Assembly (NCBI GenBank): GCA_017459805.1
Contig: JAFUCE010000144.1
Coordinates: 1 to 45,922, forward strand
Source: Eggerthellaceae bacterium
GTDB taxonomy: Bacteria; Actinomycetota; Coriobacteriia; Coriobacteriales; Eggerthellaceae
Reading direction: 5' to 3'
DNA length: 45,922 bases
Each line of letters opens with the position of its first letter. Positions within the stretch are counted from its first letter, which is position 1. Positions 34,577-41,808 of the stretch are shown here, in pieces. The notes under the pieces are model-generated. The model was not told the DNA's origin and did no database searches. It saw nothing but the letters and a program-made list of their open reading frames with translations. The translations under genes and the position numbers were made by a program.

Positions 34577-36127
34577 TTACTGCTGTGCTGCTCCGTCATT
34601 TGTTTGGTCAAGTTTATTGGCAATGCGCGCTTTGGCTGCAGCAAGGGCGGCATCAACAGCCGACATTGTTTCGCCCGCAGCACCTTCAACGGCCTCTACC
34701 GCATCCGTTGCGGCATGGGCTGCCTTTTCGGCTGCTACTTCGAGGCCCGAACCGGCGGCGAAAGCCGACACTGCATCGGCCGGTGCTTCAACAAAAGCGC
34801 CGGATGCTTTGCTTTCATCAGCTGCAAACGATGCCGCAAGCTGGTCGGCAATGCTCGCAGGATCTTCAACGCGAGCGCTTCCGGGCGCCGGAACCGCCTC
34901 CTCTGCTTGGACAACGCCGAAATCAGGCACGAGATTGGCCGCCGCTTCAACCGTTTCTTCAACGGCGCCCGCAGCAGCATCCGCCTGTGCAGCAACTTCA
35001 GCATCGAGTGCTGCAGCAACTTCAGGAGCGGTGGTCGTAAATTCGGGTGCAGGAGCCACTTCGGTCTCGGGAACCACAATGCTGTCCAGCAAGCCATCAA
35101 GGGCTGCAACATCAACATTGCCTGCATCGGGCGTGGTTGCTACGTCGGCAGGCTTGGTGGCAAACAGGTCGGAAAAGTCAACGGGGGCTGCTTCGGCGCC
35201 ATCTTGGACGGCGGGAATTTCGCCCGTTGTCTGCTCATTAAAATTAAGTTCGCCCAAGTCGGCGGTGATTTCATTTTCAGAGGCAGCTTCCACACCTGCA
35301 GCAAAACCAGCTTCGAGTTCAGCTGCTGCCGTTTCAAGTTCAGCCGCCGCTTCAACCGCTGCTGCCGTTTCGAGTTCAGCCGCCGCTTCAACCGCAGCCG
35401 CAGCTTCGAGCTCGGCCGCCGCTTCAAGTTCGGCCGCCGCTTCAACCGCTGCTGCAGCTTCGAGCTCAGATGCTACCGCTGGAACGTCGGGCACAGCAAC
35501 CTTGGTCGCAACCGCAGCAGCAGGAGCAGCATAGGTGTAGTAACGCTGACCTTCAGCCTGTTCAGCGTCTGCAGCAGGAGTAGCGCCCTCCGCTTCTAGG
35601 GCTTCGGTACCAACTTCAAGGTCGAAGCCAGAAAGATCGGGCTCGCGAAGACCTTCTCCTTCACTCGTGGCCGCTTCGCCCTCGCCTTTGACATGGGCAC
35701 CCGCAGCAAGGCGTGCAGATTCGTCAGAGGCGCGCGAAGGAGAAAAGACCTTGCGCACCTTGTTTGTTACATTCGTAACTGCCTTAATTGGTGCCTGCGT
35801 TACCGAATCAATCGCGTTGGTAGCATTAGTTACGCTCCCAGAAATTTCACCAACGTTTTCGAGAATAGTGTCAACACGCATAAGTTCAAGGTTTGCAGCA
35901 TCTACCGTAAGCGAAATGCGCTCCACCAAGGGGTCAACGCGCTCCATGGCAGGCCCAAGCTCCTTGGTAATGTGTTCAACGTTTTTAAGCGTTGGCTGCA
36001 AGTTATCAAGCGTCGCGCGCGCAGATTTAAGCGTACGAATAAGCTCGACAAGCAAGAACACAAGGGCAATACCCACCACGACAAACACGGCGATAAGAAG
36101 GATATTGAGGATTGATGCGGCATCCAT
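34577..36127 (-). CDS. DUF948-type membrane protein with Ala/Glu-rich repeats
   Basis: Protein of 516 residues. Residues 6-28 form one membrane span (ILNILLIAVFVVVGIALVFLL). A DUF948-like coiled-coil region follows (about 30-130) with the pattern LKNVEHITKELGPAMERVDPLV. A variable Ala/Glu-rich part (about 200-300) contains repeats such as AAELEAAAAVEAA and AAAELETAAAVEAAAELE in short form, and the rest is acidic and alanine-rich. The upstream AGGGAG at a good distance supports the ATG. Members are found next to alaS in many Gram-positives and may be envelope-associated. The repeated DNA makes the region length-variable. The role is unknown. Confidence 0.75.
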   Translation of the reverse strand: MDAASILNILLIAVFVVVGIALVFLLVELIRTLKSARATLDNLQPTLKNVEHITKELGPAMERVDPLVERISLTVDAANLELMRVDTILENVGEISGSVTNATNAIDSVTQAPIKAVTNVTNKVRKVFSPSRASDESARLAAGAHVKGEGEAATSEGEGLREPDLSGFDLEVGTEALEAEGATPAADAEQAEGQRYYTYAAPAAAVATKVAVPDVPAVASELEAAAAVEAAAELEAAAELEAAAAVEAAAELETAAAVEAAAELETAAAELEAGFAAGVEAASENEITADLGELNFNEQTTGEIPAVQDGAEAAPVDFSDLFATKPADVATTPDAGNVDVAALDGLLDSIVVPETEVAPAPEFTTTAPEVAAALDAEVAAQADAAAGAVEETVEAAANLVPDFGVVQAEEAVPAPGSARVEDPASIADQLAASFAADESKASGAFVEAPADAVSAFAAGSGLEVAAEKAAHAATDAVEAVEGAAGETMSAVDAALAAAKARIANKLDQTNDGAAQQ

Positions 36128-36295
36128 GTAAAGCTCCCTTCGAAAAGCTTATATACGAACTAAATATACTACCACGTAAACAAGAGTTTTATAGTGCAAG
36201 ATAGGCATTTTCACGATAGGTTCCCAGGAGTGCATACAAAAGGCATAGTACAGGCATCGCGGGAAGCTCTTGTTATCCGTATTAAAGATTGCGCA
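36128..36295. other. Intergenic stretch with no recognised element
   Basis: AT-rich spacer between the DUF948-type gene and the structured RNA candidate. I see no open frame with a ribosome site and no clear promoter pair for the downstream minus-strand gene. Confidence 0.5.
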
Positions 36296-36466
36296 TAAAT
36301 AAAACTCCACCCACCGCTCTAGGATGAACCCACCTCAGAAAGGTGGGTGCTCGCAGCCTGCTTCCTAGCTTTCGTATCAACGGATACGAATCCCTATTTT
36401 ACATGCAATGTAGAGCTCCCCTATAAAATGCATCGGTCCATCGCAATATAAGCGGAGGTGGAGCTA
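36296..36466 (-). ncRNA. Structured small RNA candidate, 6S RNA-like
   Basis: A stand-alone element of about 170 nt. Its 5' end (36465-36452) and 3' end (36303-36317) form a closing stem of 14 pairs (two G-T wobbles plus one bulged base), including CTCCACC with GGTGGAG. Inside are hairpin ACCCACCT/AGGTGGGT (36341-36348 with 36328-36335) enclosed by CTAGG/CCTAG, an eight-pair TTCGTATC/GATACGAA hairpin (36371-36390), and an eight-pair ATTTTATA/TGTAAAAT helix with an 18-base loop. A U-rich tail TTTTATTTAT follows. The ACCCACC...GGTGGGTTCA hairpin on the 3' side and the size resemble 6S RNA, but the internal branches do not match a simple 6S rod. The RNA call is moderate and the 6S identity weaker. 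Confidence 0.5.
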
Positions 36467-36472
36467 CTTGCG

Positions 36473-36478
36473 AGTATA
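36473..36478 (-). promoter_or_regulatory. -10 box of the small RNA
   Basis: TATACT on the minus strand, with its last base seven positions before 36466, exactly where the closing stem begins. Five of six positions match consensus. No strong -35 is present at 17 bases. Confidence 0.55.
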
Positions 36479-36565
36479 AAACACCCCGCATATAAATTGC
36501 AGTCTTGATTTTCTTGAGACTTAAGAGTATAGATGCGCACATTGCCAAACTAAGGCACGAAGAAA

Positions 36566-37636: not shown

Positions 37637-37651
37637 TGTAGGAGGATGTAC

Positions 37652-38704
37652 GTGGCACGGAAGAATATGGAAAGCGGTGCAGTAAGCGTTTTCTGCGAAA
37701 GTATTGCAGTCATGCTTGGTGCAGGCATCCAGACCGAAGATGCACTCGGTTTGCTTTCGGAAAACACCAATGATGCTGCATTTCAAAGCACCTGCGATGG
37801 TGTTTACCGCGGCTTGATTGAGCAAAAACCCTTAGCGGATGCCATGGAAGCAACGGGGACCTTCCCCGCCTTTGCCATTGACATGGTGCGCACCGGCGAA
37901 AACTCTGGACGCCTTGAAGCGACCTTGTCGTCTTTGGCGCGCTACTATAACGAAGAGGACAGGCTTATTTCGAAGCTGCACTCCTCCATTGTGTACCCGG
38001 TAGCGCTGTTTGCCCTGATGAGCATCATCCTCCTGTTTACGCTCATCGTCATTATTCCAATCTTTATGGACACCTACACCAAAGTTTCTGGCGGCCTGGG
38101 CACGGGGCCCTACACCTTTGTCGCGGCGTCGCTGGTTATTGGCTGGATTGCATTTGTGCTGGCGCTTTTGGGCACCATTTTCACCTTTGCGATTGCCAAC
38201 ATGACACGCTCGCAAAAGAACCTACGCGGGCTTGAAAAAATGCTCGAAAAGCTACCCTTCACGCGCGAAGCTGCCAAACAGTTGGCCCTTTCGCGCTTTA
38301 CTTCGGTGCTCACTTCCTACGCCGCTATTGGTGCGCCAAACGATGTTGCGCTTGAAGAAGCTGCCAAAACGGTAGACAGCGCGCAGCTACGCACGAAGCT
38401 GGACGCGGCAGTGGCCCAAATGCAAGACCCCGCCAACCCCAAGTCGCTTTCACGTGCCTTGGGCGACAACGACATCTATGGCCCGGTGTACACCCGCATG
38501 ATGACGGTGGGCGACACCAGCGGCAACTTGGAAGAAATTCTTGACTCCATGAGCAACACCTTCTTCGAAGATGCTCTTATTCAGATGGACGAAAGCATGG
38601 ACCGTATTGAGCCTGCTCTTGCAGCGTTTTTGACGATTACCGTGGGCGCTACGCTTATTGCGGTTATGGTCCCGCTTATCGGTATTTTAGGCTCGATTGG
38701 CTAA
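37652..38704 (+). CDS. PilC/GspF-like platform protein
   Basis: Type II secretion/type IV pilus inner-membrane platform protein of 350 residues. Two GspF domains are visible: the first (about 5-125) with MLGAGIQTEDALGLL and MVRTGENSGRLEATLSSLARYY, then a second copy (about 210-325) with YAAIGAPNDVALEEAA and MMTVGDTSGNLEEILDSM. Three hydrophobic spans (about 120-145, 155-185 and 325-348) embed it. I choose GTG 37652, which has GGAGG six bases ahead; an ATG at 37646 overlaps that site. It should hold the base of a pilus or pseudopilus and couple to a cytoplasmic ATPase, here most likely the PilT-like protein at the end of the same operon. Confidence 0.92.
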   Translation: MARKNMESGAVSVFCESIAVMLGAGIQTEDALGLLSENTNDAAFQSTCDGVYRGLIEQKPLADAMEATGTFPAFAIDMVRTGENSGRLEATLSSLARYYNEEDRLISKLHSSIVYPVALFALMSIILLFTLIVIIPIFMDTYTKVSGGLGTGPYTFVAASLVIGWIAFVLALLGTIFTFAIANMTRSQKNLRGLEKMLEKLPFTREAAKQLALSRFTSVLTSYAAIGAPNDVALEEAAKTVDSAQLRTKLDAAVAQMQDPANPKSLSRALGDNDIYGPVYTRMMTVGDTSGNLEEILDSMSNTFFEDALIQMDESMDRIEPALAAFLTITVGATLIAVMVPLIGILGSIG

Positions 38705-38742
38705 GGCAGGCGTAAGCAAGCTTCAGGGGTAAAAGGCAAGGC

Positions 38743-39069
38743 ATGTACCATCCGGAATCAACAGATCAAATTCGCCGTCGCCAGCAAAGCTGGGTGCGCA
38801 TTATCGTAATTGTTGCTATCGCTATTGTTTTGGGCACCCTGGCATTTATTGGCGCGCGCGATGCGGTACGTGAACAGGGCGCGCTTTCCATGCGCACGGC
38901 CATTCTGGAGCACGCAAAACAATGCTGCGCCGTGGAAGGTGCTTACCCGAAGTCAATCAACTATTTGGTCGACCATTACGGTTTAGTTATCAACGACAAA
39001 GACTACGTTATCAGCTACGAATGCTATGCGGACAATGTTGTTCCAAGCGTGGCGGTGGTGCCTAAGTGA
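38743..39069 (+). CDS. Small membrane-anchored pseudopilin-like protein
   Basis: Protein of 108 residues. A positively charged start (to about residue 17) is followed by a single hydrophobic helix (18-38, WVRIIVIVAIAIVLGTLAF) and a small globular part. The globular half resembles the C-terminal part of ComGC/GspG-like pseudopilins: CAVEGAYPKSINYLVDHYGL (61-80) followed by a beta-like end. No GFxxxE prepilin peptidase site is present. It lies 38 bases after pilC and overlaps the next gene by four bases, so it belongs to the same machine. Likely a minor pilin or an assembly factor; its identity is inferred from context. Confidence 0.7.
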   Translation: MYHPESTDQIRRRQQSWVRIIVIVAIAIVLGTLAFIGARDAVREQGALSMRTAILEHAKQCCAVEGAYPKSINYLVDHYGLVINDKDYVISYECYADNVVPSVAVVPK

Positions 39070-39782
39070 ACAACAATGCGGTAAATATTTCCCTCACCCG
39101 CCTGCGTGAATATGAACGTGGCCACAGCCGCAATTATTTCGTTATTTTCGAAATTGCGCTCTTCATTATTATTGTGGGCTTGCTCATGTTCACCTTAGGT
39201 TCAGGGGTAAATGTATACCGCAACATTTCCGACCAGCGCTGGAATGACGAACAAAGCCGCACGGGGCTTACCCTTATCGCGAACAGCGTGCACATTACCG
39301 ACACCATTGATGCCGTCGGTGTTGGTGTGGGTCCTGAAGGCCAGGCACTCGTACTTACCGAACTCTTCTCAACCGGTGCGTACGAAACGCGCATTTATTT
39401 GCATGAGGGCAACATTGTTGAAGAATACGCCATGGCTGGCACGCCCTACACACCTGAGCGTGCTACCCCCTTGGTGGAAAGCGACTTCTTCGATTTTTCG
39501 TATTCGAATAATTTGCTCACCGTCAATTCTGCGCACGGTAGCGAAAAGATTATGCTTCACAGCGTGCGCAAGTCTGGCACGGGCACCTTGCTGAGTGAGC
39601 AGCGCGCCGCTGAAGCTAGCGGCAGCAGTAGTGCTGAATCTAGCGTGGTTGAAGCAGAAGCCGCCAGCAGCACCGCAGCTGAAGCCATATCCGACGAAGC
39701 AAGTTCGGCGGATGCAGCCGCAGGCGACGCCGCTACGCCCGACAGCACAAGCAGTACTGAAGAAGGTGATGAACGTGGCTAA
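39066..39782 (+). CDS. DUF4860-like membrane protein with Ser/Ala/Glu-rich tail
   Basis: Protein of 238 residues. One membrane span near the start (about 27-46, VIFEIALFIIIVGLLMF) is followed by an extracytoplasmic domain (about 50-170). This part resembles DUF4860 (QSRTGLTLIANSVH, LVLTELFSTGAYETRIY, GNIVEEYAM), a family found with type IV-pilus-like clusters of Firmicutes and Actinobacteria. A low-complexity Ser/Ala/Glu tail (about 180-238) follows. The start ATG or GTG overlaps the upstream stop by four bases. It probably serves as a minor pseudopilin or surface part of the apparatus. No cleavage motif for prepilin peptidase is seen. Confidence 0.75.
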   Translation: MNNNAVNISLTRLREYERGHSRNYFVIFEIALFIIIVGLLMFTLGSGVNVYRNISDQRWNDEQSRTGLTLIANSVHITDTIDAVGVGVGPEGQALVLTELFSTGAYETRIYLHEGNIVEEYAMAGTPYTPERATPLVESDFFDFSYSNNLLTVNSAHGSEKIMLHSVRKSGTGTLLSEQRAAEASGSSSAESSVVEAEAASSTAAEAISDEASSADAAAGDAATPDSTSSTEEGDERG

Positions 39783-40245
39783 TAGCAGCGCTTCACCTTC
39801 CCTTAACATTCGCCGCAAGAAGACTTCAAGCGTAAATGCAAGCAACCGCGCTTTTGTCATTGAAGCCCTTATCCTGCTTGCTTTCTTGGCGGTTTCTGTC
39901 GCCATTATTCTGCAGCTGTTTGCCGCTGCTGGCGTTCAAAGCCGCGAAGCGCACAAGCTCAGCATGTCGGAGCACCTTGCTACCAACATGGCTGAAAGCT
40001 TCGCCGCTAACCCGAAGTCGGTTCCCAGCATTGTCTACTATGACAAGGACGGCAATCCAGTCGACGAACAGCGCCAGGCGACATATTCTGTTGAGTCAGA
40101 AGTTGTCCCCCAGCGTACCGAGGCTGGCACGCTGTATTCGGTGCATATTACCGTCACCAACTACGAACTGCGCTACGACGGCAACGTACTCTATGAGCTT
40201 GATACCAAGCGCTATCTTTCCGCCCTGGACGGGGGTGGTATGTAA
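39775..40245 (+). CDS. Type IV-pilin-like minor subunit, unknown
   Basis: Protein of 156 residues. I choose GTG 39775, with AAGG eight bases ahead; an ATG at 39769 is too close to it. A short basic leader (RRKKTSS) precedes AFVIEALILLAFLAVSVAI (about 24-42). This resembles the prepilin helix, with a glutamate five residues in from Ala (AFVIE), but lacks the Gly before the cleavage point. A soluble part with LYSVHITVTNYELRYDGN (about 120-137) follows. It overlaps the DUF4860-like gene by eight bases and the next gene by one base, so all are translated together. Probably a minor pilin; not a recognised family. Confidence 0.65.
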   Translation: MANSSASPSLNIRRKKTSSVNASNRAFVIEALILLAFLAVSVAIILQLFAAAGVQSREAHKLSMSEHLATNMAESFAANPKSVPSIVYYDKDGNPVDEQRQATYSVESEVVPQRTEAGTLYSVHITVTNYELRYDGNVLYELDTKRYLSALDGGGM

Positions 40246-40709
40246 TGAGCCTGCGCGCCAATGAAACGGTTATTCGCATGGGGCCCATTACGGTCATATC
40301 CCTGCTTATTGTTATCGCACTTGCAACCTTGGGCGTTCTTTCGCTGACCACAGCGCGCGCTTCAAACGTGGCCGCTTCCAAGCAAGACTCGGCCATCGTA
40401 GCCCTCTACCAAAATGAATCTGACGCCCAGCAATTCCTTGCGGATTTGGATGCGGCGCTCATACCTGCACGCACTAACGTGATGACAGCAACTGAAGCCG
40501 CCGCCAGCGTCAAAGATGCGCCGGCTCTTGAAGGTGCAGACATAGACGGCATAACCATTAGCAAGTCCTTCGAAAACGAAAAGCGCAAACTTAATGTGAT
40601 AGTAGTCATACGTGACGACCTGAATTACCAGGTCATTTCGTGGAAAACGGAATCGAAAATCAACACGGCCGAAGAGGTCGAACTTTGGCAAGGGAATAAT
40701 GCACAGTAG
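40245..40709 (+). CDS. Membrane-anchored protein of the pilus-like locus, unknown
   Basis: Protein of 154 residues. One membrane helix near the N-terminus (about 13-35, GPITVISLLIVIALATLGV) is followed by a soluble domain of alternating Asp/Ala segments and a C-terminal beta-like end (KLNVIVVIRDDLNYQVISW). The ATG overlaps the previous stop as TAATG. The pattern of small type II membrane proteins in a row is that of minor pseudopilins or PilN/PilO-type assembly parts. No known family is certain. Confidence 0.6.
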   Translation: MSLRANETVIRMGPITVISLLIVIALATLGVLSLTTARASNVAASKQDSAIVALYQNESDAQQFLADLDAALIPARTNVMTATEAAASVKDAPALEGADIDGITISKSFENEKRKLNVIVVIRDDLNYQVISWKTESKINTAEEVELWQGNNAQ

Positions 40710-40731
40710 TGCTTATTGAAAAGGAGCAGTC

Positions 40732-41808
40732 ATGGACATTAAGACATTACTAGGCAAAATGGTGGAGGTTGAGGCATCCGACATCTTCATCATTGCAGGT
40801 CTGCCACTTTCATATGCCATCGGGCGCAGGCAGATTCGCACCGACACGGCCCCGCTGAAGCCCGCCGACACCAAGGCGCTGGTTGACGCCATCTATGCGG
40901 TTTCAGGGCGCGACGTGAAAGTGTTCGAAGACAACCAAAACCACGACGATGACTTTAGCTTCAGCATCCCAGGGCTGGGGCGTTTCCGTGCAAACATCTT
41001 TAGGCAGCGCGGTTCCTATTCGGCGGTTATCCGCGTTATCCCCTTTGGGCTTCCGTCGCCCACGGATTTGCACATCCCCCATGCCGTTATGCAATGCGCC
41101 GACCTCAAGAAGGGCCTTGTTCTGGTAACGGGACCATCTGGTGCTGGCAAGTCCACCACACTAGCTTGCCTGATTGACCGCGTGAACAAAACGCGTACGG
41201 CCCACATCATTACGATGGAAGACCCCATTGAATACGTGCACCATCACGAGAAGTGCATCGTTACCCAGCGCGAAATACCAACCGACGTAGCCACCTATTC
41301 CGAAGCCCTTTCTTCGGCACTGCGCGAAAACCCCGACATTCTGCTCCTGGGCGAAATGCGCACGCTCGACACGATTTCCACTGCAGTTTCGGCTTCTGAA
41401 ATGGCTCAGTTGGTATTCTCGACCTTGCATACCATTGGTGCTTCATCAACCATCGACCGTATTATCGACACCTACCCTGCGGCACAGCAACACCAAGCAC
41501 GTCTGCAGCTGTCCATGACTTTACAGGCTATTATTTCGCAGCAGCTTATCCCCACGGCCGACGGCAAGGGAACGGTTCCTGCGTTCGAAATCATGCTGTG
41601 CAACGCTGCCATCCGCAACCTGATTCGTTCGGAGAAGACGCATCAGCTTGACAGCGCCATTGCTGCGGGCACGGCGCAAGGCATGTGCACCATGGACCAG
41701 AGCTTGTTTGACTTGTGCAAGGCTGGAACCATCACCAAGGAAGCCGCGCTGCAGCATTCGAGCCACCAAGAAGCCTTGGTGCGCCGCTTCGAAGTCGAAG
41801 GGATCTAA
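40732..41808 (+). CDS. PilT-like retraction ATPase
   Basis: Secretion ATPase of 358 residues, PilT class. Walker A is GPSGAGKST (134-142), the Asp box is TMEDPIEYVH (161-170), and Walker B contains ILLLGEMRTLDT (203-214). The His box reads FSTLHTIGASSTIDRI. The PilT signature AIRNLIRSEKTHQL (293-306) near the C-terminus distinguishes it from the PilB/GspE extension ATPase. AAAAGGAG before the ATG. It closes a compact locus with pilC and four membrane proteins. In other bacteria PilT powers pilus depolymerisation; here no PilB-type ATPase is present in the window, so it might power a simpler device or act with an extension ATPase encoded elsewhere. Confidence 0.93.
   Translation: MDIKTLLGKMVEVEASDIFIIAGLPLSYAIGRRQIRTDTAPLKPADTKALVDAIYAVSGRDVKVFEDNQNHDDDFSFSIPGLGRFRANIFRQRGSYSAVIRVIPFGLPSPTDLHIPHAVMQCADLKKGLVLVTGPSGAGKSTTLACLIDRVNKTRTAHIITMEDPIEYVHHHEKCIVTQREIPTDVATYSEALSSALRENPDILLLGEMRTLDTISTAVSASEMAQLVFSTLHTIGASSTIDRIIDTYPAAQQHQARLQLSMTLQAIISQQLIPTADGKGTVPAFEIMLCNAAIRNLIRSEKTHQLDSAIAAGTAQGMCTMDQSLFDLCKAGTITKEAALQHSSHQEALVRRFEVEGI

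Follow-up and report, generated by a model that had tools for sequence, protein, structure and literature searches.

The spacer and its 6S RNA gene

The window, the whole 45,922-nt stretch analysed from Eggerthellaceae bacterium (class Coriobacteriia), contains a spacer bounded on one side by the start of a DUF948 gene (36127) and the end of an overlapping plus-strand ORF (36131), and on the other by the start of the next gene (36566). The spacer is gene-free, as the initial annotation had it: no ORF of at least 60 aa lies between 36132 and 36565. A structured element occupies its minus strand, and the DUF948 gene follows about 170 nt downstream on the same strand. Coordinates of all features are given in Table 1.

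6S RNA, long known, mimics an open promoter, restrains RNA polymerase and is a global transcription regulator. At the gathering score, Rfam finds no family anywhere in the whole window. When the thresholds are relaxed, one family appears in the spacer, 6S RNA (RF00013), whose model aligns over its full length (1–187) at 36.5 bits (E 7.3e-6), below its gathering score of 46.4. The initial annotation had suggested this search and had named two alternatives, a divergent 6S RNA and a new RNA class of the lineage. The end-to-end alignment, with covariation supporting a rod, agrees with the former, and the latter does not hold, as the whole length is matched by the 6S model. The 6S-like size of about 170 nt also stands: the predicted transcript is about 168 nt, and the match extends over its full length. 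Full-length RF00013 alignment and comparable size are shared with E. coli ssrS and B. subtilis 6S-1 (bsrA), although the E. coli RNA is annotated at 184 nt. The window copy differs from the RF00013 family in its score under the cut-off, and has little closing-stem sequence in common with it.

The proposed -10 box (TATACT) is located a few nt ahead of the closing stem, which starts at about 36465. A generic sigma-70 scan finds no two-box promoter at the 6S gene, since the conserved box farther upstream departs from the canonical -35 sequence. This box could be either a regulator site or a -35 region of unusual type. In several relatives, the box reads TGTCAAGnCTTT and mostly lies 21–23 nt upstream of the 6S TATACT. 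Of 10 relatives, 8 contain the pattern GTCAAGWCT-N18-24-TATRMT a single time, always at the 6S gene; a pattern of this length should rarely match by chance, so that its being unique counts as weak evidence. At the other end of the gene, the 3′ terminus reads GGAGUUUUAUUUA, the U-rich end described initially.

Table 1 Features of the 6S RNA gene in the window, listed from upstream to downstream.
Feature	Position	Strand	Evidence
Conserved upstream promoter box TCAAGACT, non-canonical, replacing or upstream of -35	36501..36508	-	Kept in relatives
-10 box TATACT	36473..36478	-	In 76 of 81 relatives for which the script found a -10
6S RNA gene (ssrS homologue), predicted transcript about 168 nt	36299..36468	-	RF00013, 36.5 bits; lineage model R1, 160 bits
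Closing stem, 5′ arm	36450..36465	-	Two-sided changes at all 14 alignable pairs
Predicted pRNA template GCGAUGGACCGAU, start opposite U at 36432	36432..36444	-	Aligns with E. coli ssrS CCGAU; start placed by homology
Helix P2 (downstream duplex), 5′ arm GAUGGACC	36435..36442	-	100% of cells paired
Central bubble, 5′ strand	36421..36434	-	Unpaired in the consensus fold
Upstream stem, 5′ arm GGGAGCUC	36413..36420	-	Covarying pairs
Apical hairpin UUCGUAUC-CGUU-GAUACGAA	36371..36390	-	Two-sided changes at 5 of 8 pairs
Upstream stem, 3′ arm GAGCACCC	36345..36352	-	Covarying pairs
3′ central-bubble hairpin ACCCACCU/AGGUGGGU, candidate release hairpin	36328..36348	-	7 of 8 pairs invariant in 29 sequences
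Helix P2, 3′ arm GGUUCAUC	36323..36330	-	Covariation counts
Closing stem, 3′ arm, then U-rich end	36303..36319	-	Covariation counts and constrained fold

Distribution and gene neighbourhood in Coriobacteriia

Coriobacteriia include common gut bacteria, for example Eggerthella and Gordonibacter. A lineage model with a 45-pair rod (R1), built from 29 orthologues, finds a single copy in the bacterium's own genome (160 bits), as it does in 144 of the 149 Coriobacteriia genomes sampled. RF00013, a model built independently, detects the element in 137 of the same 149 genomes, 40 of them over the cut-off (best 87.5 bits), and the coordinates of the two models match wherever both are listed. Among 60 relatives, RF00013 gives one match per genome in 47 (6 above the cut-off), at sites that coincide with the DNA-match sites where both were listed. 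By DNA comparison, almost every genome sampled in the family has the same element, and weaker matches extend across the order; the plasmid records compared with it contain no similar DNA. In this lineage, the element is a stand-alone 6S gene that has a promoter of its own and occurs once per genome. Among 14 control genomes, only 4 or 5 give an RF00013 match (E. coli, B. subtilis, Caulobacter, Synechococcus, and Lactococcus). R1 misses E. coli ssrS, indicating that the 6S RNA of the lineage has drifted far, and the model gives annotators a means of detecting 6S where the Rfam cut-off misses it.

In Firmicutes, rarA neighbours the 6S gene in lactic acid bacteria and B. subtilis (PMC8414754). 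Many Eggerthellaceae resemble them in this respect: 46 of 92 loci contain rarA, in most cases no more than a few hundred bases from 6S, and the remaining loci are often too short to tell. It lies upstream and opposite in 37 of the 46 loci, downstream on the same strand in 8, and in another arrangement in 1.

Several further observations concern the neighbourhood. In the window, rarA is absent between 6S and DUF948 (36127–36300), unlike in four genomes of the same genus; the best rarA match of the own genome is a 45% identical protein on contig C68. Members of the genus differ in which way 6S points with respect to the alaS block. In one genome of the phylum outside the class, rarA is also near the RF00013 match. 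A type IV pilus-like cluster with PilC-like and PilT-like ORFs, judged by eye, lies beside the 6S gene of the window on the plus strand (37646–41808), and is kept in same-genus relatives.

The nearest alternative is an RNA of the Ms1 type, known from mycobacteria and Streptomyces, where this 6S-like rod is reported to associate with core polymerase lacking sigma. Ms1 is structurally related to 6S RNA, belongs to the same phylum as the window, and has been reported in the majority of Actinobacteria (PMC9130861). However, RF00013 aligns with the whole element and scores above its cut-off in 40 genomes of the class, and the parts used in pRNA release (helix P2, template CCGAU/C, and the 3′ bubble hairpin) are kept. 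The rarA neighbour is the synteny of Firmicutes 6S, whereas Ms1 is reported with another synteny and in Actinobacteria described as being without 6S. No other Rfam family matches the spacer, although Rfam 15 may hold no Ms1 model. We therefore consider an Ms1-type RNA very improbable. Nevertheless, since Ms1 binds core polymerase in the same phylum, holoenzyme binding by the Coriobacteriia 6S RNA is not certain.

A cis-acting leader of the downstream DUF948–alaS operon would suit the window, where DUF948 follows the gene at about 170 nt in the same orientation; this reading was rejected on gene orientation in relatives, as 6S points away from rarA and alaS in most of them (the 37 loci above) and keeps its own promoter, and is less probable still than Ms1.

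Fold and covariation

The 171-nt minus strand (36466–36296) has a minimum free energy of -64.0 kcal/mol (z -3.91), and none of 200 shuffled sequences is as stable. This single-sequence minimum-energy fold is branched. The rod, at -63.6 kcal/mol, is 0.4 kcal/mol less stable, so that the two folds nearly tie in the window.

Covariation, the test named beforehand in the initial annotation, gives a strong result in favour of the rod. In 88 distinct sequences, 94.9% of the rod cells are paired, compared with at most 49.3% when the partners are slid, and 457 two-sided changes are counted, compared with at most 89 in the slid controls. The alignment behind these figures had been fitted to the structure, and the counts were therefore repeated on a MAFFT alignment that had not been. 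Here, 89.1% of the cells are paired versus at most 51.4% in slid controls, with 117 two-sided changes versus at most 38. Pairs that occur in the branched fold alone are kept in 71% of cells versus 95% for the rod, and those beyond the 3′ hairpin are often lost in relatives. The branched fold was rejected on this ground, and the multi-branched centre, which had been taken as a misfit to the 6S rod, gives way to the rod.

RNAalifold, without a given structure, predicts the rod together with a five-pair hairpin on the 3′ side of the bubble. The three internal helices noted initially are therefore correct in part: the comparison with relatives favours a rod that is unbranched save for one small side hairpin. 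The closing stem is missing from the RNAalifold prediction, probably because the MAFFT alignment places it poorly. The 14-pair closing stem that had been described is nonetheless real; the constrained fold has 16 pairs with one bulge, of which 14 can be aligned. The covariation-supported rod, with its closing stem, helix P2, central bubble, upstream stem, and apical loop, has the architecture of the 6S family (ssrS and 6S-1/bsrA).

The branched fold would be the structural basis for a new RNA class with a multi-branched centre. With its unique pairs kept in 71% of cells against 95% for the rod, many of those outside the 3′ hairpin being poorly kept, and with the 6S model covering the whole length, we consider such a class as improbable as the cis-acting leader. 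Conversely, it is highly probable that the minus-strand element is the single 6S RNA gene of this bacterium, a rod with an open-promoter-like bubble which, by homology, would bind holoenzyme and be released by pRNA synthesis.

Template, 3′ bubble hairpin, and 6S RNA in Actinobacteria

E. coli pRNA starts at the U of CCGAU, and 6S RNA is released once polymerase copies it. The template motif CCGAU/C, on the 5′ side of the bubble, is conserved among relatives and aligned with E. coli ssrS; CCGAU is common to both RNAs. The predicted pRNA is 5′-AUCGGUCCAUCGC. It has GG at positions 4 and 5, a feature conserved beyond lactic acid bacteria (PMC8414754).

The ACCCACC/GGTGGGT hairpin, pointed out initially as a 6S feature, sits in the 3′ central bubble, the site of the E. 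coli 6S release hairpin. Its inner pairs are compatible with the rod. Its outer pairs involve nucleotides of two other helices, GGU from helix P2 and CCC from the upstream stem, and therefore cannot coexist with either. When the template strand is blocked in the fold, the full eight-pair hairpin forms.

The side hairpin in the 3′ bubble is shared with the 6S RNAs of E. coli and B. subtilis. A 9-bp hairpin arises in the 3′ bubble of E. coli and its relatives once the downstream helix has opened, and is a major contributor to release, whereas B. subtilis 6S-1 has a shorter hairpin that is present already in the free RNA (PMC8876501; the account of the gamma-proteobacterial release hairpin there follows Panchapakesan and Unrau 2012). 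The hairpin described here resembles that of 6S-1 in that the predicted fold of the free RNA already includes its inner pairs. It differs from the gamma-proteobacterial hairpin in having eight pairs rather than 9 bp and in also invading the upstream stem.

By homology, the Coriobacteriia 6S RNA would be transcribed, and its rod would bind polymerase carrying the primary sigma factor and hold it back at growth stop. When nutrients return, polymerase would use the 5′ strand of the bubble as template, placing the first nucleotide opposite the U of CCGAU and giving the predicted pRNA. This synthesis would unwind helix P2, and the GGU in the 3′ strand of that helix would become free. The freed GGU would let the hairpin close fully, pulling the CCC from the upstream stem, and the polymerase would be released.

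The RNA of the window is an ordinary 6S RNA, known as a kind, from a lineage in which 6S seems under-reported. We found no literature on 6S RNA in Coriobacteriia or Eggerthella, a search that did not cover the survey of Wehner et al. 2014, in which part may already be recorded; a broader search over further genera gave no 6S RNA paper among the best 20 matches. 6S RNA has been stated not to be found in Actinobacteria, candidates aside (PMC9130861, PMC11077062). Judged from sequence matches, the Coriobacteriia 6S RNA and the matches of up to 122 bits in further families contradict the reported absence. It is possible, though we hold it at somewhat less than even weight, that these papers are wrong at the phylum level, with a canonical single-copy 6S RNA in nearly all Coriobacteriia and strong matches in further families, that the RNA has an E. 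coli-like extended release hairpin, and that a lineage-specific promoter box, TGTCAAGnCTT, maybe ties its transcription to a dedicated regulator. The presence of 6S RNA throughout the class leaves fewer lineages in which 6S may have been lost and replaced by Ms1.

The strong RF00013 matches outside the class come from further actinobacterial families; in the phylum, 72 of 296 genomes are over the RF00013 cut-off.
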